DNA of 64,000 bases from Pyxidicoccus parkwaysis. Its GTDB lineage: Bacteria; Myxococcota; Myxococcia; Myxococcales; Myxococcaceae. The notes below the pieces were generated by a model, which was given only the letters and a program-made list of their open reading frames with translations, made no database searches and was not told the origin of the DNA. Shown in pieces: positions 38,212 through 54,977 of this stretch. Position 1 is the stretch's first letter. Every line of letters starts with the position of its first letter. The DNA is taken from assembly GCF_017301735.1 (NCBI RefSeq), contig NZ_CP071090.1, positions 2,046,001-2,110,000 on the forward strand, read 5' to 3'. Made by a program: the position numbers and the translations under genes.

Positions 38212-38220
38212 AGAGGGAAC

Positions 38221-39384
38221 ATGCGGCTGCTGACGCGGGCACGGATGGATGCAACGAGGGCGCCCCGGGCGAAGCGGGCGGCGGACTTCGACCGCGCCGT
38301 GGCCGAGTTCTTCATGCGCATCGCCCTGGAGGAGGCGGCCAAGGGCCTGGGCCGCACGAGCCCCAATCCGGTGGTGGGCGCGGTGCTGGTGAAGGGCGGC
38401 CGCATCATCGCCCGCGGCTACCACAAGAAGGCGGGCACGGCGCACGCGGAAGTCGTGGCGCTGGAGGCGGCGGGCTCGAAGGCGAAGGGCGCGGACCTCT
38501 ACACGACGCTGGAGCCGTGCGACCACTACGGGCGCACGCCGCCGTGCAGCCTGGCGATTCTGGAGGCCGGGGTGCGGCGGGTCATCTGCGCGTCCTCGGA
38601 CCCCAATCCGCAGGTGAGCGGCAAGGGCGTGGCGCGGCTGCGGCGCGGCGGGGTGCAGGTGCTCACGGGCGTCCTCACGGAAGAGGCGGACACGCTCAAC
38701 CGGCCCTTCTTCAAGGTCATGCGCACGGGCCTGCCGTGGGTGACGCTGAAGGCGGCGGTGACGCTGGACGGGAAGCTGGCCACCGCGACGGGGGACTCGC
38801 GCTGGGTGACGGGCGAGCCTGCGCGCGCGTGGGTGCACCGGCTGCGCGACGCGGTGGACGTCATCCTCGTGGGCGCCAACACGGTGCGCAAGGATGACCC
38901 GAAGCTGACGACGCGGCTTCCGGGCGGCGGAGGAAAAGACCCGCTGCGCGTGGTGGTGGATAGCCACCTGCGCCTGTCTCCGGGCTACACCGTCTTCACG
39001 CAGCGAAGCCCCGCGCGCACGGTGATTGCGACGCTGGAGGACCCGGAGGGCCGCAAGGCGCGGCGCTTCCTCGCCCAGGGCGTGGAGGTGTGGCAGGTAC
39101 GCCAGAAGGCGGGCCGGGTGGACCTGAAGGCGCTCCTCAAGCGCATCGCGAAGAGCGGCCTCAACCACGTGTTAGTGGAGGGTGGGGCGGAGCTGTACGG
39201 CTCGTTCCTGCGCGAGCACCTGGCGGACTCGCTGGCGCTGTTCCTCGCGCCCAAGCTGATTGGCAGCCCGGGTCTGTCGTGGGCGGGGGACTTGGGCGTG
39301 AAGGAGATGGCGCAGGCCGTGTCCGTGAGCGACCTCACCTTCGAGCGTCACGGGGACGACGTGCTGTTGCAGGCGCTGCTGTAG
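38221..39384 (+). CDS. ribD: Bifunctional riboflavin biosynthesis deaminase/reductase RibD
   Basis: 387 residues from ATG at 38221 (GAGGG upstream). N-terminal deaminase with zinc motif HAEVVAL and EPCDHYGRTPPC; C-terminal reductase beginning near VTLKAAVTLDGKLATATGDS with GANTVRKDDP and LVEGGAELYGSFL. Performs two steps from the GTP-derived pyrimidine toward riboflavin. Head of a ribD-ribE-ribH-nusB run. Confidence 0.96.
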   Translation: MRLLTRARMDATRAPRAKRAADFDRAVAEFFMRIALEEAAKGLGRTSPNPVVGAVLVKGGRIIARGYHKKAGTAHAEVVALEAAGSKAKGADLYTTLEPCDHYGRTPPCSLAILEAGVRRVICASSDPNPQVSGKGVARLRRGGVQVLTGVLTEEADTLNRPFFKVMRTGLPWVTLKAAVTLDGKLATATGDSRWVTGEPARAWVHRLRDAVDVILVGANTVRKDDPKLTTRLPGGGGKDPLRVVVDSHLRLSPGYTVFTQRSPARTVIATLEDPEGRKARRFLAQGVEVWQVRQKAGRVDLKALLKRIAKSGLNHVLVEGGAELYGSFLREHLADSLALFLAPKLIGSPGLSWAGDLGVKEMAQAVSVSDLTFERHGDDVLLQALL

Positions 39385-39426
39385 GCGCCCAGGCAACGCG
39401 CTTCCGCGCCGGTTATAAGGGCGCTC

Positions 39427-40086
39427 ATGTTCACCGGGCTCATTCAGGACCTTGGCAGGGTGGAGCGCGTCATCCCCGGCGGGATGACGGACCTCTGGAT
39501 TCGCACCTCGCTCGGCGCGGAGAAGTTCGACCTGGGCGAGTCCATCGCCGTCGACGGCGCGTGCCTCACGGTGGTGGAGCGCAGCGGGGACACCTTCAAG
39601 GTGCAGGCCGCGCCGGAGACGCTCCGCCGCACCACCCTGGGCGCCGTGCAGCCTGGCAGCCGCGTGAACCTGGAGCGGGCCCTCGCGCTCGGCGACCGGC
39701 TGGGCGGCCACCTGGTGTCCGGCCACGTGGACGCGGTGAGTGAAGTCCTGGAGACCTTCCCGGAAGGCGGCTCGTGGGTGATGCGATTCCGGCTGCCGGC
39801 GGAACTGGCCCCGTTCTTCATCGAGAAGGGCTCGGTGGCCATCGACGGCATCAGCCTCACGGTGAACTCCGTGGAGGCGGACCGCTTCAGCGTGCAACTC
39901 ATCCCCGAGACGCAGGAGCGCACCACCCTGAAGGGCAAGGCCGCGGGCGCGCGGGTGAACCTGGAGGCGGACCAGATTGGCAAGTACGTGGCCCGGCTCT
40001 TCGCCCTCCAGCGGGGGCAGGGGGCACCCGGGGGCGGTGGGCTGACGGCGGCGGCCGTCCGGGCAGCGGGCTTCGGCACGCCGTAG
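39427..40086 (+). CDS. ribE: Riboflavin synthase alpha subunit
   Basis: 219 residues with two lumazine-binding repeats: MFTGLIQDLGRVERV...VDGACLTVVE in the first and SGHVDAVSEVLE...IDGISLTVNSVE in the second. Joins two lumazine molecules to make riboflavin. Intermediate gene ribBA, often located directly after it, is absent; ribH follows after 39 bp. The last ~20 residues are Gly/Ala-rich. Confidence 0.96.
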   Translation: MFTGLIQDLGRVERVIPGGMTDLWIRTSLGAEKFDLGESIAVDGACLTVVERSGDTFKVQAAPETLRRTTLGAVQPGSRVNLERALALGDRLGGHLVSGHVDAVSEVLETFPEGGSWVMRFRLPAELAPFFIEKGSVAIDGISLTVNSVEADRFSVQLIPETQERTTLKGKAAGARVNLEADQIGKYVARLFALQRGQGAPGGGGLTAAAVRAAGFGTP

Positions 40087-40125
40087 CCCGCGACGCCGGG
40101 ACGCGGGTGGTGTAGGAAGCGCCGC

Positions 40126-40629
40126 ATGCCTCGCTATTTCGACGGTGACTTCCTTCCCCCCAAGGGGCGCTTCGCCATCTGCGTGGCCCGCTTCAACGGC
40201 TTCATCACCGAGGAGCTGGCCAAGGGCGCCGTGGACACCCTGGTTCGCCACGGCGTCGCGGACGCCGACATCGACGTGTACCGCTGCCCCGGTACCTATG
40301 AGCTTCCCGGCCTCGTGCGCCGCGTGACGGAGTCCCGCCAGTACGTGGGCGTCATCACCCTCGGCGCCGTCATCCGTGGCGGCACCCCCCACTTCGACTA
40401 CGTGGCGGGCGAGTGCGCCAAGGGAATCGGTCAGGTGGCCTTCAGTGCGGCGGCGGGCACTCCGGCCACGGCCGTCACCTTCGGCGTGCTGACGTGCGAT
40501 ACCGTGGAGCAGGCCATCGACCGGGCGGGCGTGAAGGCGGGCAACAAGGGCGCCGAGGCCACGCTGGCCTGCATCGAGATGGTCAATCTGTACGCGAAGA
40601 TGGCGGCGACTGAAGGAAGGAAGGCCTAG
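40126..40629 (+). CDS. ribH: 6,7-dimethyl-8-ribityllumazine synthase
   Basis: 167 residues. [42 protein letters not shown] and [16 protein letters not shown] are typical, with the active-site His in HFDYV. Condenses the ribityl pyrimidine with dihydroxybutanone phosphate. nusB follows 2 bp after the stop, a standard arrangement. Confidence 0.96.
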
Positions 40630-40631
40630 CC

Positions 40632-41051
40632 ATGGGCGCGCGGAGAACGGGACGCGAGCGGGCGCTGCAGGCGCTCTACCAGTTGGAGATGGCCCCCGCG
40701 ACGGTGGCCGAGGCGCTGGAGTCCGCCTGGGTCGCCTCCGAGGAAGCCAAGCGCGACCCAGACGCGGTGAAGTTCGCCCGCGAGCTGGTGGAGGGCGTGC
40801 AGGGCCACCGCGACGAAATCGACCAGTTGATTGAGCGGCACAGCCACAACTGGCGCCTGGACCGCATGTCCCGCATCGACCGCAACGTGCTGCGCCTGGG
40901 CATCTTCGAGCTGAAGTACCGCCCGGACATCCCTCGCAAGGTCACCATCAACGAGGCGGTGGAGCTGGGGAAGAACTTCGGCACGGAGGAGTCCAGCGCC
41001 TTCGTCAACGGCCTGCTGGACCGCGTGGCCGTGGCGCTGAACAAGCCGTAG
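40632..41051 (+). CDS. nusB: Transcription antitermination protein NusB
   Basis: 139 residues, NusB fold: RRTGRERALQALYQLEM at the start, then WRLDRMSRIDRNVLRLGIFEL and TINEAVELGKNFGTEESSAFVNGLLDRV near the end (by position ~108-135). Binds boxA RNA with NusE for rRNA antitermination. Confidence 0.97.
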   Translation: MGARRTGRERALQALYQLEMAPATVAEALESAWVASEEAKRDPDAVKFARELVEGVQGHRDEIDQLIERHSHNWRLDRMSRIDRNVLRLGIFELKYRPDIPRKVTINEAVELGKNFGTEESSAFVNGLLDRVAVALNKP

Positions 41052-41084
41052 TCGCAAGCCGAGTCGTAGACGAGGGACGCCCGC

Positions 41085-41576
41085 GTGAGCCAGACGACGA
41101 CGCACGACATCGGGTTGGAGGGGTTGGACTCGCTCGGCGGGGTGGACGCACTGTGCCTCTTCGTGGCCGAGGATGACCGGCCCCTGCCGACCTCCGCCGG
41201 CTACGTGGACTGGCGCCTGTGCGGCACCCTGTCCCGGGTGCTGAAGAACGGCTTCTTCACCGGCGCCAAGGACGACTGGCTCCTCTTGCCCTCGGACGGG
41301 AAGCTGCCCGTGCCGCGCATCTTCGTGGTGGGGTTGGGCTCGCGGCAGAAGCTGGACGCGGGCGCGCTGAGCGAGGCCCTGGCCAACGCGGGGAAGGTGC
41401 TGAGCCGGGCGAAGGTGGACTCGGTGGCGCTGGAAGTGCCCTTCGGAGGACGCGCCGAGGACGCCGCGAGGGCGGACGCCTATCAGAAGGGCTTCCTCCC
41501 GGCGTTCAAGGGTGGACGGGTGGCGCTCCTGGTGGACAAGGGGCTCGTCCGGCTCCTACCAGGACGCAAGGGTTGA
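41085..41576 (+). CDS. Stand-alone peptidase M17 N-terminal (macro-like) domain protein
   Basis: 163 residues from GTG at 41085. It matches only the N-terminal domain of leucine aminopeptidases: CLFVAEDDRPLPTSAGYVDWRLCG, FVVGLGSRQKLDAGALSEALANAGK and a closing beta segment. The metal-binding peptidase domain is absent and there is no room for it, so it cannot be a peptidase. Such lone domains may bind nucleotides or ADP-ribose-like ligands, since the fold is related to macro domains; actual role unknown. Located between nusB and the che operon. Confidence 0.72.
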   Translation: MSQTTTHDIGLEGLDSLGGVDALCLFVAEDDRPLPTSAGYVDWRLCGTLSRVLKNGFFTGAKDDWLLLPSDGKLPVPRIFVVGLGSRQKLDAGALSEALANAGKVLSRAKVDSVALEVPFGGRAEDAARADAYQKGFLPAFKGGRVALLVDKGLVRLLPGRKG

Positions 41577-41631
41577 CGCGCAGCGGCCGGCCGGGCGTTC
41601 TGTTAGCATTGTCCGCCCGGGGCGAGCGCAC

Positions 41632-42006
41632 ATGCGTGTCAAGGTCTTGATTGTCGAGGACTCCAAGGCGTCGCGCGAGTACATCGCCGCGACCGTGGAG
41701 GCCGTGGAGGGCATCGAGGCGATTGTCACCTCGAGCGGCTTCGAGGCCCTGAAGCTGCTGCCGCGCCACCGGTTCGAGCTCATCATCACCGACATCAACA
41801 TGCCCGACATCAACGGGCTGGAGCTCATCAACTTCGTCAAGAAGAACCCCAACTACCGGGACGTGCCGCTGTTCATCATCACCACCGAGGGCCGCGAGCA
41901 GGACCGCGACCGCGGCATGGCGCTGGGCGCGACGGAGTACCTGGTCAAACCCTTCCTGCCCGGGAGCCTGGAAGAGCTCCTGCGGCGGTACCTGAAGCTG
42001 CCGTGA
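41632..42006 (+). CDS. CheY-like response regulator (first gene of che operon)
   Basis: 124 residues, single receiver domain. Acidic pocket ED near residue 9-10, phospho-acceptor Asp in IITDINMPDING, Thr in FIITTEGRE and Lys in YLVKPF. The stop overlaps the GTG start of cheA, so it is made together with the kinase, whose own sequence lacks a receiver domain. Probable output of this chemosensory system. Confidence 0.93.
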   Translation: MRVKVLIVEDSKASREYIAATVEAVEGIEAIVTSSGFEALKLLPRHRFELIITDINMPDINGLELINFVKKNPNYRDVPLFIITTEGREQDRDRGMALGATEYLVKPFLPGSLEELLRRYLKLP

Positions 42007-44570
42007 ATCCCGGTTCCAAGGCCCTGGCCGAGTTCGTGGCCGAGGCGACCGAAATCCTCGACGCGCTGGGCAAGGACCTGCTCGTCCTCGACGAGCGGCG
42101 CGGGCAGGAGGCGGACCCGGACCTGGTCAACGGCATCTTCCGTGCGGCGCACTCGCTCAAGGGGTTGTCCGGGCTGTTCGGCCAGGAGCGCATCTCCCGG
42201 CTGGCGCATGGGACGGAGGAGTTGCTGGACCGGCTGCGCCTGGGCCGGCTGCGGCTGGACGACACGGCGCTGGACGCGCTGATCGAAGCGCTGGACGCGT
42301 TCCAGGCGCTCCTGGCCGAGGCGGCGAGGGGAGCGGAGACAGAGCCGCTCACCCGGCGCGTGGAGGCGATGACGGAGCGGCTGGCGGGGCTGGGCTCGCC
42401 GCCCGTGTCGGTGGACGAGGACCCGCTGGACCGGCTGGAGCTGGACCCGCAGGTGCGCTCCGTCTTCACCGAGTACGAGGAGCACCGGCTCCGGGAGAAT
42501 GTCCGGCGCGGCGTGTCGCTGTGGCGCGTGCGGGCCGCGTTCGACCTGTCCGACTTCGACAAGGGGCTGGCGGACCTCAACGCGCGCCTCAAGCCGATGG
42601 GCGAGGTCATCAGCACGCTGCCCTCCGCGCGACCGGGAGGAGCGCACGGCATCGCCTTCGACCTCATCTTCGGTGCGCAGGCGTCGGGCGATGAGCTGGA
42701 GGCGGGGCTGAAGGGCACGCCGGCGGAGTTGGCCCCGCTGGTGGTGCGCCCAGCGGCCGGCGCCACGCAGGCCGCCGCAAAGGCACTGGCCCGCGCCGTG
42801 GAGCCACCTCCGTCCTCACGCACGACGCTGGCTCGCGTGGATGAGCCCGCGGCCCCGGCGAAGCGCGGTGGGAAGAAGAAGCGTGGCAAGGCGGGCGCTT
42901 CGCCCGATGGCGCAGGAGGCCAGCAGCCCCTGCTGCCGGCATCGGAGACCGACGGGGCAGAGGGGGCGGGCGCTGACGACGCTCACGTGTCGTCGGCATC
43001 GTCGCGTGCCGGGCGGGCCGGTTCCTCGGGCCTGGGCGATGCGCAGGCGCCGTCGACCGCAGCCGGCCTTCAGCGCGGTGCGGGTGACACGCTGGTTCCG
43101 GCGACACCTTTCGGGCGCCCACAGGGGACAGGTGACGCGCAGTCACCCACGTCCTCCTCCGCGCGTCCGAACGGCTCCGGGGATGCACTGGTGCCGGTGT
43201 CGCCCTCCGCGCTCCAGTCTCCACCGGGCGCGTCCGGTGCGTCGGTGGCGTACCTGCAATCCGCCAGCGCGGCACAGCGCGTGCGCGCGGTGGTGACGGA
43301 GACGTCTGGCGCGGGCACGGCCTCCTCCGCGCGCCCGGAGGGCGACAGCACCTCGCTGCGCTCGCTGACGCAGACGGTGCGCGTGGACATCAGCAAGCTG
43401 GACGGCCTCATCAACATGGTGGGCGAGCTGCTGCTCATCAAGGCCAACCTCCAGCGGCTCGCGGAGTCCGCGCGGCAGGACGGCGCGGTGGCGCTGTCCA
43501 AGCTCTTCGGCCAGGAGCTGGCGCGCGAGACGCGCGGCCTGGAGCGCAAGCTGGAGGCCCTGCAGGAAGGGCTGCTCGAAGCGCGCATGGTCCCCGTGGG
43601 CCAGGTGTTCGACAAGCTGGCCCGGCTGGTGCGCCGCATCACCCGCGAGGCGGGAAAGGAAATCGAGTTCGTCATCGGCGGCGGCGAGGTGGAGCTCGAC
43701 AAGCTCATCGTCGAGGAGCTCAGCGACCCGCTGATGCACCTCATCCGCAACGCAATCGACCACGGCGTGGAGCCTCCGGATACGCGCCTGTCCGCCGGCA
43801 AGCCCCGGCGCGCGGTGGTGGCGCTGCGAGCCGAGCAGAAGGGCAACCACGTCGTCATCGAAGTCTCCGATGACGGCGCCGGCATCGACGAGTTGCGCGT
43901 GCGCGAGGTGGCCCTCACGCGCGGCCTCATCACCTTCTCGCAGGCCCAGGAGATGAGCCGCCGCGAGCTGCTCAATCTCATCTTCCTGCCTGGCTTCTCC
44001 ACCGCTCGCAGCGTGTCCGAGCTGTCCGGCCGCGGCGTGGGCCTGGACGTGGTGAAGAACAACCTGGGCAACCTGTCCGGCATCATCGACGTGTGGAGCG
44101 AGCGGGGGAAGGGCACCGCCTTCCACCTCACGCTGCCCGTCACGCTGGCCATCATCCGCGCGCTCGTGGTGGGCGTCAGCGGCCGCACGTACGCGGTGCC
44201 GCTCAACAGCGTGCTGGAAATCCTCTCCGTGCAGCCCAAGGACATCCGCACCGTGGAGCGGCGCGAGGTGTTGGACCTGCGCGGGCAGACGCTGCCCTTC
44301 ATGCGGCTGGCGCGGATGTTCGCGCTGCCGGAACGGCCGGTGAGCCGCTACTTCGTGGTGGTGGTGGGGCTGGCGCAGGAGCGGCTGGGCATCGCCGTGG
44401 ACGAGCTGTACGGCCAGCAGGACATCGTCACCAAGCCCCTGGGTGGGCGCTTGCAGTCCGTCCGGGGCATCTCCGGCGCCACGGACCTGGGCAATCGACG
44501 CACCGTGCTGGTGCTGGACGTGGCGGCGCTGCTGGAAGAGGGCCTGGCCATGGAGCGCCGCCGGGCCTGA
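42003..44570 (+). CDS. cheA: Chemotaxis histidine kinase CheA
   Basis: 855 residues from GTG at 42003. P1 phosphotransfer domain with His50 in FRAAHSLKGLSG; P2-like region unclear; a ~200-residue low-complexity Ser/Gly/Ala/Pro linker (~240-455); dimerisation helix pair from RVDISKLDGLINMVGELL; ATPase with N-box HLIRNAIDHGVE and G1/G2 DDGAGID, GRGVGLDVVKNNL; C-terminal CheW-like P5 domain (~710-850). Couples a receptor array to CheY and CheB. The unusually long linker includes imperfect short repeats (GSGDALVP, GAGDTLVP, GTGDAQSP). Confidence 0.95.
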   Translation: MNPGSKALAEFVAEATEILDALGKDLLVLDERRGQEADPDLVNGIFRAAHSLKGLSGLFGQERISRLAHGTEELLDRLRLGRLRLDDTALDALIEALDAFQALLAEAARGAETEPLTRRVEAMTERLAGLGSPPVSVDEDPLDRLELDPQVRSVFTEYEEHRLRENVRRGVSLWRVRAAFDLSDFDKGLADLNARLKPMGEVISTLPSARPGGAHGIAFDLIFGAQASGDELEAGLKGTPAELAPLVVRPAAGATQAAAKALARAVEPPPSSRTTLARVDEPAAPAKRGGKKKRGKAGASPDGAGGQQPLLPASETDGAEGAGADDAHVSSASSRAGRAGSSGLGDAQAPSTAAGLQRGAGDTLVPATPFGRPQGTGDAQSPTSSSARPNGSGDALVPVSPSALQSPPGASGASVAYLQSASAAQRVRAVVTETSGAGTASSARPEGDSTSLRSLTQTVRVDISKLDGLINMVGELLLIKANLQRLAESARQDGAVALSKLFGQELARETRGLERKLEALQEGLLEARMVPVGQVFDKLARLVRRITREAGKEIEFVIGGGEVELDKLIVEELSDPLMHLIRNAIDHGVEPPDTRLSAGKPRRAVVALRAEQKGNHVVIEVSDDGAGIDELRVREVALTRGLITFSQAQEMSRRELLNLIFLPGFSTARSVSELSGRGVGLDVVKNNLGNLSGIIDVWSERGKGTAFHLTLPVTLAIIRALVVGVSGRTYAVPLNSVLEILSVQPKDIRTVERREVLDLRGQTLPFMRLARMFALPERPVSRYFVVVVGLAQERLGIAVDELYGQQDIVTKPLGGRLQSVRGISGATDLGNRRTVLVLDVAALLEEGLAMERRRA

Positions 44571-44604
44571 CGTACGCGGCGGCCGGCTGCTATCCTTGGC
44601 GGCT

Positions 44605-45171
44605 GTGTCCAGGTTCGCAGAGCTACTCGACGACTTCTTCTACCGCCCGGACGAGGACGTCGCCGGACTGCATGACTTCGCCGCGGGAAGCGACGGAGCG
44701 CAGGCCTCCGCCCCGGAGGAGGTGCCGGAGGAGTATCTCGCGTTCCGCCTGGAGGGAGAGTGCTACGCGGTGCCCATCCGCGCCGTGCGCGAAATCTCCA
44801 AGGTGCCCCCGCTGACGGAGATTCCCCGCGCGGAGCCGCAGTTGCTCGGCGTCATGAACCTGCGAGGCGAGCTGCTCCCGGCCTATGACATCAAGGTGCG
44901 GCTGCGCCTGGCGGAGCGGGCCCCTGTCGTCGCGGGCCCGGAGGCGCCTCCGCCGCCGCGCGATGCCCGCATCCTCGTGCTGCGCACCGAGTCCGGCCCG
45001 GCCGGCGTCTGGGTGGACAGCGTCACCGGCGTGGTGCGGCTGAAGCCCTCCATGCTGGAGCCCGCGCCGCCGGGGCTGCGCACGGGTGAAAGGGACTGCG
45101 TGGTGGGCATCGGCCGGCGGGGGCCCACGCTCTACATCCTCCTCGACCCGGAACAGGCGCTCGCTTCATGA
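44605..45171 (+). CDS. cheW: CheW-like coupling protein, first copy
   Basis: 188 residues if started at GTG 44605; ribosome site weak, a TTG 9 nt upstream is possible. An N-terminal extension of ~45 residues precedes the CheW domain (YLAFRLEGECYAVPIRAVREI, GVMNLRGELLPAYDIKVRL, VWVDSVTGVVRL). Extension is acidic and may mediate extra contacts. Connects CheA with receptors. Confidence 0.9.
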   Translation: MSRFAELLDDFFYRPDEDVAGLHDFAAGSDGAQASAPEEVPEEYLAFRLEGECYAVPIRAVREISKVPPLTEIPRAEPQLLGVMNLRGELLPAYDIKVRLRLAERAPVVAGPEAPPPPRDARILVLRTESGPAGVWVDSVTGVVRLKPSMLEPAPPGLRTGERDCVVGIGRRGPTLYILLDPEQALAS

Positions 45172-45692
45172 AGGACCCGGTCAACCTCCTGGCGCGCCGG
45201 CCGCGCGCGGTGCTGGACGCTCCCGCCGACGAGGCGGACACGCTCGTGCAGCTCTGCGCCTTCTTCGTGGGCAACGAGGAGTACGTGCTGGACATCATGC
45301 GCGTGGAGGAAATCCTCCCGTCCCAGCGAATCACGCCCATTCCCCATGCGCCGTCCTTCGTGGAAGGCGTGCTGCACCTGCGCGGCGTCATCCTCCCCGT
45401 GGTGGACCTGCGCCGCCGGCTGCTGGGACAGGCGACGCCGGAGACGCCGAAGATGCGGCTCCTGGTGTGCAAGCTGGGGCAGCGCCGCGTGGCCGTGCGC
45501 GTGGACCGGATGGCGGAGGTGCTGCGGGTGCGCAAGGGCGACATCAAGCCGGCGCCCGCGCTGATGGTGGCGGGACGCTCGCCCTTCGTGGTGGGCGTGT
45601 GCGGACCGCCGGACCGGCTCCGGCTGTTGTTGGACTTGAAGGCCTTGTTGCGCGCGGAGCTGGAGCGCGAGTCGACGCGGAGACCCGAATGA
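45168..45692 (+). CDS. cheW: CheW-like coupling protein, second copy
   Basis: 174 residues; ATG at 45168 overlaps the first cheW stop. CheW fold with CAFFVGNEEYVLDIMRVEEIL, GVLHLRGVILPVVDLRRRL and VRVDRMAEVLRV. Differs clearly from the first copy, so the two may bind different receptors or stabilise different array contacts. Confidence 0.92.
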   Translation: MKDPVNLLARRPRAVLDAPADEADTLVQLCAFFVGNEEYVLDIMRVEEILPSQRITPIPHAPSFVEGVLHLRGVILPVVDLRRRLLGQATPETPKMRLLVCKLGQRRVAVRVDRMAEVLRVRKGDIKPAPALMVAGRSPFVVGVCGPPDRLRLLLDLKALLRAELERESTRRPE

Positions 45693-46090
45693 GCTTTCAG
45701 GAGAGCGCGCGCATCGATTTGGAGTCGCTCGAAGGGCACCGCCGCATCCTCGGCATCATCTTCGTCGTGCTGAATGCGCTGACGCTCCTGGGGATGCTGG
45801 CGTTCGCGGCCTTCGCCATCATCCTGGGCATGGTGGGGACGAGGCACGTCCGCGCGGACGAGCGCGACATGCTGACCGTCATCACGCTGGGCGTCACCGG
45901 GTGCCTGTCCGTGATGGCGCTGCCGGGGCTCTTCACCGGCATCGGCCTCCTGAGGCGCCGGCCCTGGTCCCGGGCGCTGGCGCTGGTGTTGGGCATCCTC
46001 GCCATCCCCAACATCCCGCTGGGGACGGCCCTGGGCATCTACGCCATCTGGTTCTACACGCAGTCGGGGTCCGACCAGGTCTTCGAATGA
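45689..46090 (+). CDS. Small three-span membrane protein of the che operon
   Basis: 133 residues; ATG at 45689 overlaps the cheW stop, and its own stop overlaps the next start, so it is firmly inside the operon. Three or four hydrophobic segments: ILGIIFVVLNALTLLGMLAF, VITLGVTGCLSVMALPGLF, ALALVLGILAIPNIPLGTAL. No methyl-accepting helix and no ligand domain. Family not recognised by name. It could anchor the signalling complex at the membrane in place of a receptor; this is inference from context. Confidence 0.75.
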   Translation: MSFQESARIDLESLEGHRRILGIIFVVLNALTLLGMLAFAAFAIILGMVGTRHVRADERDMLTVITLGVTGCLSVMALPGLFTGIGLLRRRPWSRALALVLGILAIPNIPLGTALGIYAIWFYTQSGSDQVFE

Positions 46091-48063
46091 ACCCGTTGCC
46101 CGAGTTCCCCGCGGAGGAGGCCCGCTATCGCGCGCTCCAGGAGCTGGACCCTCGGGCGGCGGGAGCGCTGGAGGTGCTCGTCACCGGCCTCCATGACGAG
46201 AGCTGGCGCGTGCGCCACGTGGCGGCGGAGGCCCTCAAGCGGCTGCCGTCCTCGCGCGAGGTGGCCGAGCGCCTCATCCGCGTGCTGGGCGAGCGGGGCG
46301 AGACGGGCGCACGCAACGCGGCGGCGGAGGCGCTGGCCGGCCTGGGCGGCGCGGCGCTGGGCCCGCTGGTGACGCTGCTGGGCCACCCGGACCCGGACCA
46401 GCGCAAGTTCGCGGCGGACATCCTCGGGCAGCTCGGGCTGCGCGCCGCGGAGCTGCCGCTGGTGCAGGCGCTGGAGGACCCGGACCTCAACGTGCGGGTG
46501 GCCGTGTCCGAGGCGCTGGGGCGCGTGGGCGGTGAGCACTCGGCGCGCGCGCTGGAGGGGCTGCTGACGGATGCGGAGTCGCTGCTGCGGCTGTCCGCGT
46601 TGGAGGGGCTCGCGCTGTTGCGCAGGCCGCCGCCCCTGCCCGTGGTGCTGGCGATGCTGGAGGACACGCGGCTGCAGCGCAGCGCCTTCCGCGTGCTGGG
46701 GCTGGTGCCGGAGGTGGTGGCCACGGAGCGCATCTGCCAGGGGCTGGCGTCGCCGGTGCGCTCCGTGCGCGAGGCGGCGCTGGGCGCGCTGGGCACGCAG
46801 GTGGCGCTGGTGGAGCCGGCGCGGCGCGGAGAAGTCGAGGCGGTGGTGCGCGCGGCGCTGCGCCGGCTGCCGGACGCGGCGCAGCGGCTGGTTCAGGCGC
46901 TGGAGTGCGAGGACGTGACGGTGCGCTCGGGCGCGCTGGTGTCCGCGGCCGCTCTGGGCGAGGCGTCGCTGGCGCTGCCGGTGGCGGAGGCGGCGCGGGA
47001 GGACCGGCTGCTGCGCGAGGTGCTGAACACGCTGGGCCGGCTGGGGCCGGAGGGCGGGCGCGCGCTGCTGGCCCACATGGCGGACCTGTCCTCGCCGGCC
47101 CGCGCGGCGGCGGCCGAGGCGCTGGCTGATTTGGTGGACCCCGGCTCGGTGACGGCGCTGTGCGCGCTGCTGGAGTGGGCGGAGGACGACCTGCGCGCGG
47201 TGGTGGTGCGAGCGCTGGGGCGCACGCGCTCTCCGGAGGCGGTGCCGCCGCTGGTGGACCTGCTGGTGGCCCCGTCCCTGGCGGGCGCGGCGACGCGGGC
47301 CCTGGGCGTGCTGGCGGGCAGCAACCGGACGGCGGTGCTGGAGGCGCTGGAAGAGGCCGTCACGCGCCGGGCGACGTCGGCGGCGGTGGCGGCGCTGGCC
47401 CGGGTGGGCGGTGCGCCCGCGCTGCCGGCGCTGCGGCAACTGGCCCGGGACGCGGAGCCCACCTGGCGCGCGGCGGCGGTGGAGGCCGCGGGCGAGGTGG
47501 ACGGCGCGGTGGGCCGTGAGCTGGCGCGCGCCGCGCTGGCGGACGAGGCGGTGCAGGTGCGCGCCGCCGGAGTGCGCGCCATGGGCCGGCTGGGCGGGCC
47601 CGAGGCGGGAGCGCTGCTGCGCCCCGCGCTGCACGACGAGGACGCGTCCGTGCGCCTGGCCGCGGTGGAGGCGGTGGGCGAGAGCGGCGCGACGGACCGG
47701 GCCTCGGAGCTGGAGGCCCTGGTGCGCCATCCGGACGGAGCGCTGGCCGTCGCGGCGGTGCGCGCGCTGGCGCGGCTGGGCATGGCGGGCCCCGGCGTGC
47801 TGATGGATGCCGCGGCCCACCCCGACGCGGAGGTGGTGAAGGCGGCGCTGTCCGCGGGCGCATTGAGCGCGGTGGGCGTCGAGCTGGCGGTGGCGCTGCT
47901 GGGGCACCCGCGCTGGGACGTGCGCGCGGCGGCGGCCCGGGTGCTGGGGGATGCGGGCGGGCCGGAGCGACTGGACGTGGCACGAAGGGCACTGGAGGCG
48001 GAAGCGGACGCCCTGGCGCGGCAGACCCTCTCCGACGCGGTGGAGCGCCTGTCCCGGCGCTGA
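46087..48063 (+). CDS. Large HEAT-repeat protein of the che operon
   Basis: 658 residues, almost entirely ~31-residue HEAT/PBS-lyase-type repeats (about 19-20), each with the pattern D-x-x-VR-x-x-AA-x-AL-G-x-L. Examples are WRVRHVAAEALKRL, LNVRVAVSEALGRVG and WDVRAAAARVLGDAGG. Such solenoids are protein-binding scaffolds. Starts overlapping the small membrane protein gene. A HEAT protein also occurs in at least one other myxobacterial chemosensory cluster (from memory). Could organise CheA/CheW complexes or link them to a non-flagellar target. Confidence 0.88.
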   Translation: MNPLPEFPAEEARYRALQELDPRAAGALEVLVTGLHDESWRVRHVAAEALKRLPSSREVAERLIRVLGERGETGARNAAAEALAGLGGAALGPLVTLLGHPDPDQRKFAADILGQLGLRAAELPLVQALEDPDLNVRVAVSEALGRVGGEHSARALEGLLTDAESLLRLSALEGLALLRRPPPLPVVLAMLEDTRLQRSAFRVLGLVPEVVATERICQGLASPVRSVREAALGALGTQVALVEPARRGEVEAVVRAALRRLPDAAQRLVQALECEDVTVRSGALVSAAALGEASLALPVAEAAREDRLLREVLNTLGRLGPEGGRALLAHMADLSSPARAAAAEALADLVDPGSVTALCALLEWAEDDLRAVVVRALGRTRSPEAVPPLVDLLVAPSLAGAATRALGVLAGSNRTAVLEALEEAVTRRATSAAVAALARVGGAPALPALRQLARDAEPTWRAAAVEAAGEVDGAVGRELARAALADEAVQVRAAGVRAMGRLGGPEAGALLRPALHDEDASVRLAAVEAVGESGATDRASELEALVRHPDGALAVAAVRALARLGMAGPGVLMDAAAHPDAEVVKAALSAGALSAVGVELAVALLGHPRWDVRAAAARVLGDAGGPERLDVARRALEAEADALARQTLSDAVERLSRR

Positions 48064-48074
48064 GGAGAGACCGC

Positions 48075-48962
48075 GTGCCCCGCTTCGACGACAGCCGTCC
48101 GGAGATGTCCCTGGAGGAGTTCCGCCTCCTCCGGGACCACGTGTACTCGCACTGCGGCATCCTCGTGCACGAGGACATGAAGTTCGTCATGGAGCGCCGG
48201 CTGTGGCCGCGGCTGGAGGCGCTGGGCCTGCCGGACTTCGGCGCCTACCACCGCTACCTGCGCTACGACGCGCAGAGGCACGCGGAGCTGGAGGCGGCCG
48301 TCGAGGCGCTCACCACACACGAGACGTACTTCTTCCGCGAGCCCTCGCAGCTCAAGGCCTTCTGCGACGAGCTGCTGCCGGTGCTGGAGAAGCGCAACAG
48401 CCGCTTGAAGCGGCTGCGGCTGTGGTCGGCGGGGTGCTCGTCCGGCGAGGAGGCCTACACGCTGGCGATGCTCCTCAAGGACAGCCGCCGCTTCGACGAC
48501 TGGGACGTGGAGGTGTACGGCACGGACATCTCGCGGCGCGTGCTGTCCATGGCTCGGCGCGCGGAGTACGGGGCGTCCGCGCTGCGCGCCACGTCGGCGG
48601 ACCTGCTCGAGCGTCACTTCCAGCCGGCGGGCAACAACCGCGTGCGCGTGCGCGACGAGGTTCGCTCCTGGGTCTCCTTCGGCCACCACAACCTGCTGGA
48701 CGAGACGGGCAGCCAGCTGGTGCCGCGCATGGACGTGGTGTTCTGCCGCAACGTGATGATCTACTTCGACCAGGCCGCGCGCCGCCGGGTGTTGCGCATC
48801 GTCCGGGACAGGCTGGTGCCCGGGGGCTACCTGCTGCTGGGCCACTCGGAGAACCTCCTGAACCTGGGCGCCGACTTCGAGCTGGTCCACCTGCAAGGGG
48901 ACCTCGTGTACCGCCGGCCGGAGCTGCCGGGCCTGACGACGACGGGCGGGGAGGGGAGATGA
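48075..48962 (+). CDS. cheR: Chemoreceptor methyltransferase CheR
   Basis: 295 residues from GTG at 48075. N-terminal helical domain (LRDHVYSHCGILVHED), then the SAM-binding core: ETYFFREPSQL, LWSAGCSSGEEAYTLAM, VYGTDIS, and VVFCRNVMIYFD. Methylates glutamates of chemoreceptors; its presence implies that a methylatable receptor exists elsewhere in the genome. Confidence 0.95.
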   Translation: MPRFDDSRPEMSLEEFRLLRDHVYSHCGILVHEDMKFVMERRLWPRLEALGLPDFGAYHRYLRYDAQRHAELEAAVEALTTHETYFFREPSQLKAFCDELLPVLEKRNSRLKRLRLWSAGCSSGEEAYTLAMLLKDSRRFDDWDVEVYGTDISRRVLSMARRAEYGASALRATSADLLERHFQPAGNNRVRVRDEVRSWVSFGHHNLLDETGSQLVPRMDVVFCRNVMIYFDQAARRRVLRIVRDRLVPGGYLLLGHSENLLNLGADFELVHLQGDLVYRRPELPGLTTTGGEGR

Positions 48963-49996
48963 GCGCTCAGGACGCCATCAACGTGCTCGTCATCGACGAC
49001 TCGGCGCACAACCGCCACACGCTCACCACGCTGCTGGAGTCCGCGCCCGACGTGCGTGTCATGGACCGCGCGGCCGACGGCGAGGAGGGGCTGAAGAAGG
49101 TCCTCGAGCTGAAGCCGGACGTGGTGACGTTGGATTTGGAGATGCCGAAGCTGGGGGGCTACACCTTCCTGCGGCTGCTGATGCGCACGGTGCCCACGCC
49201 CGTCATCGTCATCTCCAGCTACTCGCACAAGTCGGACGTGTTCAAGGCGCTGGAGCTGGGCGCGTTCGACTTCATCGCCAAGCCGCCGCGAGGCACGCGC
49301 GAGGCGCTGGAGGGGCTGCGCAACGAATTGCTCGAGAAGGTGCGCGCGGCGCGGCACGTGCGGCCCGGGCAGCGTCACGCGGCGCCGGGCGCGAGGGCCA
49401 TGGCGGTGGCGGGCGAGCTGCCGCTGGTGGTGGCGGTGGGCGCGTCCACGGGCGGGCCTCCCGCGGTGCAGCGCATCCTGGAAGGCCTGGCCGCGGAGCC
49501 GACGCCGTGCGTGCTGGTGAGCCAGCACATGCCCTCGCAATTCACACGCGCCTTCGCCGAACGTCTGGACCGCATCGGCCCGTTCACGGTGACGGAGGCG
49601 TGTGACGGGGACGTGGTGCAGCCGGGGCACGTGTACATCGCTCCGGGTGGGCGACACATGGTGGTGGCCGAGCGGGGCACGAAGCTGGAGCTGCACACGC
49701 CGCCGCCGACGCCGCTGGACAAGTACGCGCCCAGCGTGGACCGGCTCTTCTGCAGCGTGGCGCAGGTGCTGGGGCCGCGCGCACTGGCGGTGGTGCTGAC
49801 GGGCATGGGCGCGGACGGCGCGGAGGGCGCGCGCGAGGTGGCGCGCGTGGGTGGCGAGGTCTGGGCCGAGTCCGAGGAGACAGCGGTGGTGTTCGGCATG
49901 CCGGGCGAGGCCATCGCCACGGGGGCGGTGAAGCGGGTGTTGCGGCTGGGAGAGATGGGCCCCGCGCTGGCCGCCCTGGCGCGGCGCAAGCGGTAG
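48959..49996 (+). CDS. cheB: Chemotaxis response regulator / methylesterase CheB
   Basis: 345 residues; ATG at 48959 overlaps the cheR stop. Receiver domain with phospho-acceptor Asp in VVTLDLEMPKLGG and Lys in FIAKPPRG; esterase domain with catalytic Ser in VGASTGGPPAV, His in SQHMPSQF and Asp in TGMGADGAEG. Removes methyl groups or deamidates receptors after phosphorylation by CheA. Confidence 0.96.
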   Translation: MSAQDAINVLVIDDSAHNRHTLTTLLESAPDVRVMDRAADGEEGLKKVLELKPDVVTLDLEMPKLGGYTFLRLLMRTVPTPVIVISSYSHKSDVFKALELGAFDFIAKPPRGTREALEGLRNELLEKVRAARHVRPGQRHAAPGARAMAVAGELPLVVAVGASTGGPPAVQRILEGLAAEPTPCVLVSQHMPSQFTRAFAERLDRIGPFTVTEACDGDVVQPGHVYIAPGGRHMVVAERGTKLELHTPPPTPLDKYAPSVDRLFCSVAQVLGPRALAVVLTGMGADGAEGAREVARVGGEVWAESEETAVVFGMPGEAIATGAVKRVLRLGEMGPALAALARRKR

Positions 49997-50014
49997 CGGC
50001 TCTCGCTGCTTTTT
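49992..50014 (+). terminator. Weak terminator at the end of cheB
   Basis: GGTAGCG (49992-49998, including the cheB stop) pairs with CGCTGCT (50004-50010) through 7 bp with G-U pairs, loop GCTCT, then TTTT. It would end the che operon, though the stem is short. Confidence 0.4.
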
Positions 50015-50161
50015 CAACGGAGTGGCGGAAGTCCTGACGCTCGGAGTGTCACCTGGAAGTCCGGAGACGGCGCGGAAGGTGCGGCCGGAGGACAGGGCTC
50101 CCCGCGGGGCCGGTGCTTCCCTTCAGTGGCCGATTGGCCCGGGTGGTAGTCTTTGAAGGCT

Positions 50162-50542
50162 ATGACGCAGCAGATCCGAGCGCTGGTGGTGGACGACTCG
50201 CAGGCGATGCGGCGCAGCATCATGTACGCCCTGCAGCGCATCAGCGGCATGGTCTGCACCGAGGCCCAGGACGGAGCTGACGGGCTGAAGAAGCTGACGC
50301 AGGGCCAGTTCGACGTGGTGCTGACGGACATCAACATGCCGCTGATGGACGGGCTCAAGCTCATCAGCCACATCCGCCAGGCGACGGACCACCGGCACGT
50401 GCCCATCGTCGTCATCACCACGGAGAGCGCGGCGGCGGACCGCGAGCGCGCCATGAAGCTGGGCGCGAGCGCGTACCTCGTGAAACCCGTGCAGGCGAAG
50501 GTGGTGATGGATACCGTTCGGGACGTGCTGAAGCTGGACTGA
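50162..50542 (+). CDS. CheY-like response regulator
   Basis: 126 residues from ATG at 50162; a TTG 9 nt upstream is an alternative. Receiver domain only: VVDDSQAMRRS, phospho-acceptor Asp in VVLTDINMPLMDG, Thr in VVITTESAA, Lys in YLVKPVQ. Separated from cheB by 165 bp and a weak terminator, so it may be transcribed on its own, yet it resembles the first CheY of the cluster and could be a second output or a phosphate sink. Confidence 0.92.
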   Translation: MTQQIRALVVDDSQAMRRSIMYALQRISGMVCTEAQDGADGLKKLTQGQFDVVLTDINMPLMDGLKLISHIRQATDHRHVPIVVITTESAAADRERAMKLGASAYLVKPVQAKVVMDTVRDVLKLD

Positions 50543-50556
50543 GGGCCGCCCCACGC

Positions 50557-51318
50557 ATGGATGCTGTGCTGGAAGTCGACGGGCTGGAGAAGGTCTACGG
50601 TGACGTGAGGGCCGTGCGAGGGCTCTCCTTCTCGGTGGCGCCGGGGGAAATCCTCGGCCTCGTCGGGCCCAATGGAGCGGGGAAGACGTCCACGCTGCGG
50701 TGTCTCGCGGGCATCCTTCCGCCCAGCGCGGGGCGCATCGCGGTGGCGGGGAACGACTTGAAGCAGCGGACGGTGGAGGCGAAGCGCGCGCTGGCCTTCC
50801 TGCCGGACGAGCCGCGCTTCTTCGACTACCTCACGGTGTGGGAGCACCTGAACTTCACTGCGCGGCTCTACGGGGTGGAGGACTGGGAGGCGCGGGGCAG
50901 GGCGCTGCTGGAGGAGATGGAGCTGTCCGGCAAGGAGAAGGCGCTGCCGGGCGAGCTGTCGCGGGGCATGAAGCAGAAGCTGTCCATTGCGTGCGGCTTC
51001 CTGCACTCGCCGAAGCTCATCCTCCTGGACGAGCCGCTCACGGGATTGGACCCCATCGGCATCCGGAGGATGAAGGCCTCGCTGCGGCGCCGCGCGGAGG
51101 AGGGCTCGGCGCTGGTGTTGTCCTCGCATCTGCTGCCGCTGGTGGAGGAGCTGTGTCACCGGCTGCTGGTGATTGCGGGAGGTCGCGCGGTGGCGCTGGG
51201 CACGCTGCCGGAGATTCGCGCGAGGCTCACCGGCCCGGAGTCGGAAGGCGTGTCGCTGGAGGAGCTCTTCATCCGCATCACCAGCGCGGCGACGGAGCCT
51301 GGGATGTCGTCGCCGTGA
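50557..51318 (+). CDS. ABC transporter ATP-binding protein
   Basis: 253 residues. Walker A GPNGAGKTS, Q-loop region LAFLPDEPRFFDYL, signature LSRGMKQKLSIA, Walker B LILLDEPLTGLDP and His in SSHLLP. The asymmetrical DEPRFF-type Q region resembles drug or Na+ efflux ATPases of the CcmA/NatA type. Starts 14 bp after the CheY gene and overlaps the membrane subunit by 4 nt. Confidence 0.92.
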   Translation: MDAVLEVDGLEKVYGDVRAVRGLSFSVAPGEILGLVGPNGAGKTSTLRCLAGILPPSAGRIAVAGNDLKQRTVEAKRALAFLPDEPRFFDYLTVWEHLNFTARLYGVEDWEARGRALLEEMELSGKEKALPGELSRGMKQKLSIACGFLHSPKLILLDEPLTGLDPIGIRRMKASLRRRAEEGSALVLSSHLLPLVEELCHRLLVIAGGRAVALGTLPEIRARLTGPESEGVSLEELFIRITSAATEPGMSSP

Positions 51319-53036
51319 GCTTCCCTCGTGCGGTGCTGTTCCTCTGGACCGCATCGCTGCGCAATCGCATCTGGCGCCAGCTCGCGCGGTTGCGCCATCC
51401 GCGCTACCTGCTCGGGCTGGCGGTGGCGCTCGTGTATCTGTACTCGGCCGTCACCCGCACCGTGGGCTCGCGGAGTCTCGGAGGCCTGCCCGGTGGGCCC
51501 AGACTGTTCGCGGAGCTGTCGTTGGTGGGCTCCGTACTGGGCACGGTGTTCGCCGCGTGGGTGCTGGGCAAGGACCAGCCGTCCCTCACCTTCACCGAGA
51601 CAGAGGTGGTGCAGCTCTTCCCCGCGCCCGTCACCCGGCGCGCGCTGCTGCACTACAAGCTCATGCGTGGCCTCATGGGCGCGACAGCGGGCGCGCTGTT
51701 CGCAACGCTGTTCATCGGCCGGGTGGTGAGCGGCACGCCGGTGCTCTTCTTCCTCGGCGCAAGCCTCGCGCTCGGCACGCTGTACCTGCACACCACGGCG
51801 GCGGCCTTCACGCGCACGCGATTGGCGGCCCGAGGTCCCTGGGGCCTCGTGTTGCGCTGGGGCGGGGTGGCCCTGGTGCTCGTGGCGGTGGCGGCGGCGA
51901 TGCTCTCCGCCCTCCGCGCGCACCCCTTCCCCGAGGAAATCTCCTCGTCGCGCGACCTGCGCGTCTGGCTGCAAGCCATGATGGACTCACCGGGCCTGGC
52001 CGCGGTGCTGATGCCGGGCCGTGTGCTGGTGGAACCGTCGCTCGCGGGCAGCATGAGTGGCTTCCTGCACGCGCTGCCCCCGGTGCTCGCCCTGGCGGCG
52101 GCGCACTACGCCTGGGTGGTGCTGGTGGAGGTGCCCTTCGAGGAGGCGGCGGTGGTGCGCGCCGAGACGCGCGCGAAGGAGCGCGCGCTGCGCGCATCGG
52201 GACAGCGTTCTGGCACGTACACGCTGCGCAAGCCGCCCTTCCGGCTGCTGGCGCGAGGGCGGCCAGAAGTCGCGCTCGTCTGGAAGAACCTCATCGCCCG
52301 CAAGCGCATGGCGGGAGGCTTCGCCGTCTTCGCCCTGTTCATCGTGTTCGGCGGCGCTATCGCCGCGCTGCTGGGGGACGCACGTCTCTTCACGGACACG
52401 CGGCGCGTGGTGGGGCCGCTGATGCTGACGTTGGCTGTTCTGCTGACGGTGGTGGGCCCGAGCGCCTTCCGCATGGACCTGCGGATGGACCTGCCGAAGC
52501 TCGACCTGCTGCGTGCCCTGCCGCTGACGGGACGGCAGGTGGTGGGCGCGGAGCTGGCGGCGTCCGCGCTGTCGGTGGCCGGCCTCCAGCTCTCGCTGCT
52601 GGCGGTGGCGCTGCTGATGGGGCCCGGCACGGAGGAGTCGCAGTTGGGCGAATGGTGGTGGCCGGGCGGACTGGGGCTGGCGGTGCTGTTGCCCTCGCTG
52701 TCGCTGGCCGGGCTCTTCGTGCAGAACGCGGCGGTGGTGTTGTTCCCTGCCTGGGTACCGGCGGATGCGGGCCAGCGGGTGCGCGGCCTGGAGGCCATGG
52801 GCCAGCGATTGCTCACGATGCTGGGCACGCTGGTGGTGACGATGGCGGGACTGGTGCCGGCGACGCTGGTGGCGCTGCTGGTGGGCCTGCCGCTGTACCC
52901 GGCGCTGGAGGAATGGACGCTCCCGCTCTCGGCCCTCGGCGCGGCCGTCGTACTGGTGGGGGAGGTGGCCCTGGGCGTGGTGGCCCTGGGCCGTGCCTTC
53001 GAGAGCCTGGACGTGTCCGAGGAAAGACCCGAGTAG
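51315..53036 (+). CDS. ABC transporter membrane subunit (ABC-2-like)
   Basis: 573 residues from GTG at 51315, coupled to the ATPase gene. About 12 hydrophobic segments in two sets, separated by a cytoplasmic part (~270-330) that is strongly charged (EVPFEEAAVVRAETRAKERALRAS). LFPAPVTRRALLHYKLMRG and DLLRALPLTGRQVVGAELAAS are paired copies of a motif typical of ABC-2 exporters, suggesting an internal duplication so that one protein provides both halves of the channel. Substrate unknown. Confidence 0.82.
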   Translation: MSFPRAVLFLWTASLRNRIWRQLARLRHPRYLLGLAVALVYLYSAVTRTVGSRSLGGLPGGPRLFAELSLVGSVLGTVFAAWVLGKDQPSLTFTETEVVQLFPAPVTRRALLHYKLMRGLMGATAGALFATLFIGRVVSGTPVLFFLGASLALGTLYLHTTAAAFTRTRLAARGPWGLVLRWGGVALVLVAVAAAMLSALRAHPFPEEISSSRDLRVWLQAMMDSPGLAAVLMPGRVLVEPSLAGSMSGFLHALPPVLALAAAHYAWVVLVEVPFEEAAVVRAETRAKERALRASGQRSGTYTLRKPPFRLLARGRPEVALVWKNLIARKRMAGGFAVFALFIVFGGAIAALLGDARLFTDTRRVVGPLMLTLAVLLTVVGPSAFRMDLRMDLPKLDLLRALPLTGRQVVGAELAASALSVAGLQLSLLAVALLMGPGTEESQLGEWWWPGGLGLAVLLPSLSLAGLFVQNAAVVLFPAWVPADAGQRVRGLEAMGQRLLTMLGTLVVTMAGLVPATLVALLVGLPLYPALEEWTLPLSALGAAVVLVGEVALGVVALGRAFESLDVSEERPE

Positions 53037-53131
53037 GCACGGGCCCGTCCGTTCGTGGACGCTCGCGTGCTTTCGTCCTGCGCCTCCCGCGCGCGCCGGT
53101 TATTTCGAGCGCCCCTGAGGAGGAATCACGC

Positions 53132-54019
53132 ATGAAGGTCGGATTCATCGGACTGGGGAACATGGGCCTGCCCATGGCGAAGAACCTGCTCGCCGCGGGG
53201 CACGAGCTGACGGTGTGGAACCGCACGCAGGCCAAGGCCGGGCCGCTGCGCGAGAAGGGGGCACGCGTGGCCAACACTCCCGCGGAGGCCGCGCGCGGCG
53301 CGGACGTCGTCATCAGCATGCTCGCGGATGACCACGCCGTGCAGGATGCCGTCCTCGGAAAGGATGGCGCGCACGCGGGGCTGGGGAAGGGCGCCGTGCA
53401 CGTCTCCTCCAGCACCATCTCCGTGGCCCTCTCCGAGAAGCTGACGGAAGCCCACGCGAGCGCGGGTCAGGGCTACGTCTCCGCGCCCGTGTTCGGCCGT
53501 CCCGAGGCCGCGGACGCGAAGCAACTCTGGGTCATCACCTCCGGCCCCAGAGCGGACGTGGAGCGCGTCCGTCCACTGCTGGAGGTCCTGGGCCGGGGCC
53601 TCACCGTGCTGGGCGAGAAGCCCTCCGCCGCCAACGTGGTGAAGCTGTCCGGCAACTTCCTCATCGCGTCCATGATGGAGGCGCTCAGCGAGGCCTTCGC
53701 CCTCACGCGCAAGTCCGGCATCGAGCCGAAGCTCTTCCTCGAGGTGTTCCAGTCCGTCTTCGCGCGCGCCCCCATCTTCGAGCGCTACGCGCAGCTCATC
53801 GCCGAGGAGAAGTACTCGCCCCCGGGCTTCACCATGAAGCTGGGCCTCAAGGACGTGGGGCTCGTGCTGGACGCCGGCCGAGGCGCCGAGGTGCCCATGC
53901 CCCTGGCCAGCCTCCTGAGAGACCAGTACCTCGGTGGCGTCGCGCAGGGACACGGCGACCTCGACTGGTCCGCCATTGGCGCGCTGGTGGCGGAGCGCGC
54001 GGGCTTGAAGAAGCGCTGA
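53132..54019 (+). CDS. Beta-hydroxyacid dehydrogenase (3-hydroxyisobutyrate/GLYR family)
   Basis: 295 residues. NAD(P)-binding GFIGLGNMGLPMAKNL, substrate-binding VSAPVFGRPEAADAKQL, catalytic Lys in VVKLSGNFLIASMMEA. NRT after the second strand (VWNRTQAKA) suggests preference for NADPH, as in succinic-semialdehyde/glyoxylate reductases. Substrate cannot be fixed. A strong GAGGAGG precedes the ATG. Confidence 0.9.
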   Translation: MKVGFIGLGNMGLPMAKNLLAAGHELTVWNRTQAKAGPLREKGARVANTPAEAARGADVVISMLADDHAVQDAVLGKDGAHAGLGKGAVHVSSSTISVALSEKLTEAHASAGQGYVSAPVFGRPEAADAKQLWVITSGPRADVERVRPLLEVLGRGLTVLGEKPSAANVVKLSGNFLIASMMEALSEAFALTRKSGIEPKLFLEVFQSVFARAPIFERYAQLIAEEKYSPPGFTMKLGLKDVGLVLDAGRGAEVPMPLASLLRDQYLGGVAQGHGDLDWSAIGALVAERAGLKKR

Positions 54020-54968: not shown

Positions 54969-54977
54969 CGGTGCGGC

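Follow-up and report, generated by a model that had tools for sequence, protein, structure and literature searches.

The Che8 chemosensory system of Myxococcus xanthus is encoded, according to the tables of PMC3945109, by CheY8b (MXAN_4759), CheA8 (4758), CheW8b (4757), CheW8a (4756), CheR8 (4753), CheB8 (4752) and CheY8a (4751). A Che8 system without a methyl-accepting chemotaxis protein (MCP) is already in print for Corallococcus coralloides (PMC6194562), and che8-like clusters in Anaeromyxobacter and Geobacter are reported to be conserved and syntenic with that of M. xanthus (PMC2330069). For CheA8, an action on the orphan regulator MXAN_4468, and through it on groEL, has been reported (PMC9040617); beyond this route from CheA8 through the orphan regulator to groEL, the accessible literature searched reports no output of Che8, and it reports no signal. 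The receptors McpJ, McpB and Mcp7 were assigned to Che7/Che8 by phylogeny, McpJ being listed as 723 residues with a HAMP domain and two membrane spans (PMC3945109). Among HEAT-repeat proteins, Cpc7 of Che7 is stated in a review to bind the single-domain regulator CheY7 (PMC11514114), and a Halobacterium HEAT_PBS protein is reported to be needed for coupling Che to the archaeal flagellum (PMC2666748). Here we analyze an MCP-free operon of Pyxidicoccus parkwaysis that combines che genes with a HEAT-repeat solenoid and a small membrane protein, and which lies at positions 41632-50542 of a 64-kb window (2,046,001-2,110,000 of the 13.2 Mb single-contig genome). We consider it reasonably probable that this is a Che8 system with a McpJ-like receptor encoded in trans, a HEAT protein that serves as downstream partner of CheY, and a membrane protein that is an optional accessory.

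The Che8 operon of P. parkwaysis

Translation and Pfam searches show that the operon consists of real open reading frames in the order cheY-cheA-cheW-cheW-membrane protein-HEAT-cheR-cheB, followed by a second cheY, and every product other than the small membrane protein has strong Pfam matches:

41632-42006, + strand: cheY (CheY8b counterpart), 124 residues, single receiver domain, PF00072 (4.8e-24)
42003-44570, + strand: cheA (CheA8 counterpart), 855 residues, GTG start; Hpt, dimerization, ATPase and CheW-like domains (PF01627, PF02895, PF02518, PF01584)
44605-45171, + strand: cheW1 (CheW8b counterpart), 188 residues from GTG 44605; PF01584 (3.7e-30, frame from 44596); alternative start TTG 44596
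45168-45692, + strand: cheW2 (CheW8a counterpart), 174 residues, PF01584 (1.4e-32)
45689-46090, + strand: small membrane protein, 133 residues, 3-4 spans, no Pfam family above cut-off
46087-48063, + strand: HEAT-repeat solenoid, 658 residues, PF13646 (1e-54)
48075-48962, + strand: cheR (CheR8 counterpart), 295 residues, PF01739 (6.2e-57)
48959-49996, + strand: cheB (CheB8 counterpart), 345 residues, receiver and methylesterase, PF00072 (5.5e-23) and PF01339 (3.2e-60)
50162-50542, + strand: second cheY (CheY8a counterpart), 126 residues from ATG 50162, PF00072 (8.1e-29); alternative start TTG 50153 giving 129 residues, with no overlap with cheB

A profile search of positions 36001-56000 detected no MCP. 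The frames, the Pfam matches and this search together bear out the gene content, without a receptor, that the initial annotation had described. Its further statement that start/stop overlaps join the genes is right for five junctions with 4-base overlaps (cheY/cheA, cheW/cheW, cheW/membrane, membrane/HEAT and cheR/cheB); the other three are gapped, by 34 or 25 bases (cheA/cheW), 11 bases (HEAT/cheR) and 156 or 165 bases (cheB/second cheY).

The same annotation had supposed that the operon might belong to the set of eight Che systems of M. xanthus, and by gene order and lengths, as distinct from the MXAN_475x sequences, it is Che8. The order is the same, an MCP is absent in both, and the lengths of CheY8b (124), CheW8b (188), CheW8a (174) and CheB8 (345 residues) are identical, as is that of CheY8a (126) when the second cheY is read from ATG 50162; CheA (855 here versus 862) and CheR (295 here versus 290) differ. 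The tags 4754 and 4755 are missing from the tables of PMC3945109 and coincide in position with the HEAT and membrane genes here, which suggests that MXAN_4754 and MXAN_4755 would be these two genes. No description of the Che8 HEAT and membrane proteins was found in the literature searched, which barely covers the subscription papers that may describe them.

For comparison, 146 Myxococcota genomes were screened with CheW2, and 60 loci, each spanning 3-19.5 kb, were read and annotated with profiles built from the window, the MCPs of the same genome and later the loci themselves. Three of the 60 (L062, L064 and L065) were dropped as not Che8, and 58 Che8-type loci, P. parkwaysis included, were counted. 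In a CheA tree of 83 rows a single Che8 clade of 56 (SH-like approximate likelihood-ratio support, SH-aLRT, 99) takes in every Che8-type locus with a CheA (55 in all), plus L215, and excludes the nine other CheAs of P. parkwaysis. A separate contig scan with profile A1 yielded 80 loci, with a HEAT match in none of the 80; the genomes of 11 of them were searched further.

The P. parkwaysis CheA, CheB and CheR fit every catalytic pattern tested, including the Ser, His and Asp of CheB. Across 53 loci those of CheA are found for the Hpt histidine in 51, the N box in 33, G1 in 46 and G2 in 53; those of CheB hold for Asp and His in 47/47 and for Ser in 44/47, and those of CheR for the CRN motif in 46/50 and the S-adenosylmethionine motif in 36/50. 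A methylatable receptor would be the simplest explanation for the retention of a cheR and a cheB with these patterns.

A candidate receptor encoded elsewhere

P. parkwaysis is not receptor-poor, its genome encoding 27 MCP signaling domains. The strongest candidate lies apart from the operon:

G000:C1:285854-286405: signaling domain of L071, an unlinked McpJ-like MCP with a 727-codon open frame

It has two predicted spans separated by a loop, a HAMP domain, a signaling domain and two consensus methylation sites, and by its length and domains it is the putative counterpart of McpJ. Its kin are found inside Che8 operons. In eight of the 58 loci an MCP with an open frame of 849-909 codons (one is cut) lies between cheW2 and the HEAT gene, in the slot that the membrane protein occupies in P. 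parkwaysis. All eight belong to family f13, of which no fetched locus lacks such an MCP, and they form a single clade of the CheA tree. The signaling tip of L071, LALNAAIIAAQAGEHGKGF, is close to those of the slot MCPs. L071 scores 301 bits with a profile of the slot MCPs that itself includes L071, the next MCP of the same genome, the McpK-like L083, scoring 149. With L071 as query the seven full slot MCPs score 172-146 bits, the cut one 134, and the other MCPs of P. parkwaysis 117 or less.

In an MCP tree of 72 rows, which left out MCPs matching fewer than 120 model positions (for example the cut one of L209), the slot MCPs form one clade (100/100), which shares a group (85/85) with the unlinked McpJ-like MCPs (86/75 for these alone). 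A first tree of 35 rows, without the P. parkwaysis MCPs L087 and L092 (both in the second tree) and the MCP of L062, had placed L071 next to the clade of slot MCPs, as its sister (96/83), and suggested a simple relocation of an operon MCP to an orphan site, an idea that was dropped after the larger tree. Since f13 genomes carry both kinds, the MCP in the slot is an additional paralogue, not just the parent gene at a new site. The McpJ-like gene thus looks like an old unlinked receptor, of which f13 has an additional relative within the operon.

The phyletic distribution of the McpJ-like MCP points in the same direction. At thresholds (best score per genome) of 133 bits for Che8 and 199 bits for McpJ, the 146 Myxococcota genomes divide into 91 with both, three with Che8 only (G055, G131 and G141), six with the MCP only (G017, G023, G045, G071, G098 and G136) and 46 with neither; outside the family of P. 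parkwaysis the counts are 32, 1, 5 and 43. The next genomes below the thresholds score 122.7 bits (Che8) and 156 bits (McpJ), and four genomes are borderline for Che8 at 133-138 bits (G010, G040, G044 and G055). Genomes that were not individually named were scored as negative (19 for Che8, 28 for the McpJ-like MCP), and the rows of A1 (5) and A2 (20) were all drawn from genomes that were afterwards searched, so that their scores are high by construction. Several of the nine discordant genomes are fragmented or incomplete, though not all, as G023 and G098 are 95-96% complete and G141 99%. The Fisher p of 1.4e-27 overstates the evidence because the genomes are related; the families that hold both-genomes and neither-genomes (f1, f2, f4 and f9) are a better guide. 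As controls we took two other types among the 27 MCP domains of P. parkwaysis: a McpK-like type (at least 174 bits) gave 63 genomes with both, 31 with Che8 only, one with the MCP only and 51 with neither, and a Mcp7-like type (E 1e-35) gave 39, 55, 0 and 52. Of the three receptor types tested the McpJ-like MCP tracks Che8 best. What is added here to the earlier phylogenetic link of McpJ is the operon-borne kin and the co-occurrence. The McpK-like frame L083:960-4328 (- strand) also carries at its C terminus a solute-binding domain of family 5 (PF00496, 2.6e-67).

A Che8 kinase that has no private receptor and joins mixed arrays, where several MCPs of other systems drive it, could be accommodated by the abundance of MCP domains in the genome, by the cross-system module published for Che4/5/6, and by the reported absence of a visible effect of mcpJ deletion (PMC3945109). 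We regard it as unlikely, given that in the published two-hybrid data neither CheW8a nor CheW8b bound any of six MCPs (Mcp4, Mcp5, Mcp6, McpA, McpH and McpM; McpJ is not named there) and that the McpJ-like MCP follows Che8 better than the two other MCP types.

The HEAT protein and the variable slot

The HEAT protein is an ancient, near-constant core part of Che8. It is encoded in 54 of the 58 Che8-type loci, the remaining four comprising two cut by contig ends (L046 and L057) and two that show none (L040 and L059). Among the eight loci with an MCP in the slot it is found in seven, the eighth being cut by a contig end. Because it is near constant whether or not an MCP adjoins, it is not a replacement for the receptor, and it probably passes the signal onward. 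By analogy with Cpc7, CheY8 would be its most likely partner.

Most full copies match over about 640-685 residues, and in an alignment of 29 sequences residues 1-150 are best conserved, with 36 of 80 positions kept at 80% or more. A single-sequence structure model has a mean predicted local distance difference test score (pLDDT) of 65.5, with values above 80 at about residues 381-620 and below 50 at 145-338. Foldseek searches with this model recovered only generic HEAT proteins (CAND1, SF3b, the PP2A A subunit and the artificial alphaRep), and from generic solenoids matched by a single-sequence model of low confidence no specific function was concluded. The G+C content of the window is highest over the HEAT gene (78.6% at 46001-48000 versus about 66-74% elsewhere).

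In most loci the HEAT gene directly precedes cheR, and in three (L055, L069 and L070) the HEAT and CheR profile matches share one long open frame, a possible fusion. These arrangements, together with the general use of HEAT solenoids as protein-binding scaffolds and the generic Foldseek matches, would suit a protein that scaffolds CheR/CheB or the assembly of arrays in place of a CheY output partner. The characterized proteins of this kind are, however, described as working at the level of CheY and output (PMC11514114, PMC2666748), and we accord such a scaffold a low probability.

The content of the slot varies widely over the 58 loci: besides the eight MCPs it holds a zinc-ribbon/receiver protein in 10, the small membrane protein in five and nothing recognized in 35, among which some loci are cut and some have short unassigned stretches. 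The zinc-ribbon/receiver proteins score 88-395 bits in the 10 loci (L050, at 41 bits, is doubtful), and one is fused to the HEAT protein (L039). Representatives, including two from metagenome-assembled genomes (MAGs) discussed below, are:

L056:7943-8716: zinc-ribbon/receiver slot protein
L049:8140-8928: zinc-ribbon/receiver slot protein
L053:8300-9163: zinc-ribbon/receiver slot protein
L206:4790-5767: zinc-ribbon/receiver slot protein
L209:8277-9398: zinc-ribbon/receiver slot protein

In their alignment these proteins, a zinc-ribbon joined to a divergent receiver, show a motif of the type SVFNxTAYKRRPxxLYGADDYVEQHH; in the three that were scanned, Pfam matches to receiver and zinc-ribbon families are all below the cut-offs. 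P. parkwaysis itself has, at G000:C1:5156238-5156465 (- strand, L248), a 91-codon frame that matches the C-terminal part only (model positions 186-262, E 4e-15).

The membrane protein has three hydrophobic stretches, and a single-sequence model of low confidence (mean pLDDT 69) has four helices. A match at E 1e-6 or better occurs in 38 of 96 genomes of the family: 23/27 in its own genus, 11/16 in genus g5, one of these partial, and four elsewhere. The matches of the last four are weaker; that in G079 lies on a different contig from the Che8 locus, and the other three are without an assigned position. In the own genus and g5 the gene directly follows cheW2 wherever the place of cheW2 is known (G167, G168, G176 and G177 of the 34 being unchecked). 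Four own-genus genomes that retain Che8 lack it (G075, G086, G099 and G113), and in the slot of G075 (L014) a short frame resembling the ends of the membrane protein looks like a decayed remnant of its gene. No paralogue was found in the P. parkwaysis genome at E 0.01. With so limited a distribution the membrane protein was rejected as a conserved receptor.

The initial annotation had placed the membrane and HEAT proteins where a receptor would be expected and suggested that they might form a new type of input or output platform. The position is correct for the membrane protein, which occupies the exact place of the MCP in relatives; a role of the two as stand-ins for a receptor is not supported, given the presence of HEAT in MCP-slot loci, the patchy distribution of the membrane protein and the co-occurrence of Che8 with a conventional receptor type encoded elsewhere. 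HEAT goes with Che8, irrespective of whether the operon has a receptor, rather than with receptor-less che operons as such. An input platform built from HEAT alone or from HEAT and the membrane protein, able to activate CheA8 in the absence of an MCP, would fit an operon devoid of MCP, a membrane protein in the MCP slot, a HEAT gene next to cheW2 in many loci and a conserved N-terminal region (residues 1-150) suited to docking, but is quite improbable in view of the coexistence of HEAT and MCP in seven of the eight MCP-slot loci and in the Che7-type locus L078, the loss of the membrane protein from genomes retaining Che8, the retained cheR and cheB, and the receptor type that accompanies Che8.

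In the surroundings of the operon, translations read by eye place what we take to be riboflavin genes and nusB upstream and an ATP-binding cassette transporter downstream. Just upstream of the operon, at 41085-41576, lies a stand-alone Peptidase_M17 N-terminal domain (163 residues, PF02789, 4.4e-17) with no match to the catalytic domain in the same frame.

The proposed pathway and its relation to known systems

From the observed gene content, homology, conservation, co-occurrence and trees we infer the link of McpJ to Che8, the contact of HEAT with CheY and the role of the membrane protein. In this pathway a McpJ-like transmembrane MCP, encoded in trans, would serve as the Che8 receptor and drive CheA8 through CheW8a and CheW8b, with adaptation of the receptor by CheR8 and CheB8. 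CheA8 would phosphorylate CheY8a and CheY8b, and the HEAT solenoid would act as a dedicated downstream CheY partner, as an output or scaffold piece, in the way that Cpc7 serves CheY7. The small membrane protein might be a recent, optional accessory.

Several observations weigh against this proposal. The score thresholds for Che8 and the McpJ-like MCP were chosen after the scores had been seen, and tree support for the sister relation of slot and McpJ-like MCPs is moderate. The f13 genomes have a slot MCP plus the unlinked McpJ-like one. All seven slot MCPs examined have more predicted spans than L071; consensus methylation sites are found in only two of the seven, one each, and none in the other five; and L047, the sole slot MCP scanned in Pfam, has no HAMP match. 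Deletion of mcpJ is reported to have no visible defect and all cheA deletions to alter fruiting (PMC3945109), so McpJ is either not the sole input or its loss is masked. Outside the Myxococcota the link is thinner, as the fetched stretches of L209 and L214, both described below, contain no CheA, and in L207 the CheA encoded next to HEAT is not a member of the Che8 clade. Finally, the HEAT protein of L078 is longer and only 29% identical to that of Che8 over 619 columns.

Related arrangements extend beyond the sampled loci. In two Nitrospirota MAG loci, MCPs of the wider McpJ-like group are combined with HEAT, cheR, cheB and cheW: L214 (a Nitrospirae MAG), with two MCPs, cheW, HEAT, cheR and cheB consecutively, and L209 (a Nitrospiria MAG, cut), where a zinc-ribbon protein precedes HEAT. 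The same protein lies ahead of HEAT in L206, from a MAG with the title Deltaproteobacteria that the tree program files under Myxococcota, and in L207 (MAG GWA2_54_12) HEAT, cheR, cheA and an MCP are close together. It is conceivable, though we hold it with some doubt, that Che7 and Che8 are members of an ancient class of chemosensory systems found across Myxococcota and at least some Nitrospirota, which is defined by a private HEAT protein as CheY output partner and has receptors of the McpJ family and a variable slot, filled in many lineages by a zinc-ribbon/divergent-receiver protein, for which the accessible literature searched gives no link to these systems.

An operon free of MCPs need not imply receptor-less signaling, and now that a candidate receptor family and a near-constant HEAT partner have been named, the Che8 pathway is opened to experiment. 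The nearest relatives are the M. xanthus Che8 and the Geobacter and Anaeromyxobacter clusters reported as syntenic with it. The M. xanthus Che7 system with Cpc7 is paralleled in P. parkwaysis by L078, taken as its own Che7 by gene order (Y-A-W-MCP-HEAT-R), which likewise encodes a HEAT protein in a che operon; unlike the Che8 operon, L078 keeps its MCP in the operon and has one cheW, and because of the low identity of the HEAT proteins a function shared with Cpc7 is an analogy. In Halobacterium, as reported, the HEAT_PBS protein OE2401F with CheF provides a further parallel, in that a HEAT-repeat protein encoded beside the che genes couples Che to its target, which there, unlike in Che8, is the archaeal flagellar switch.

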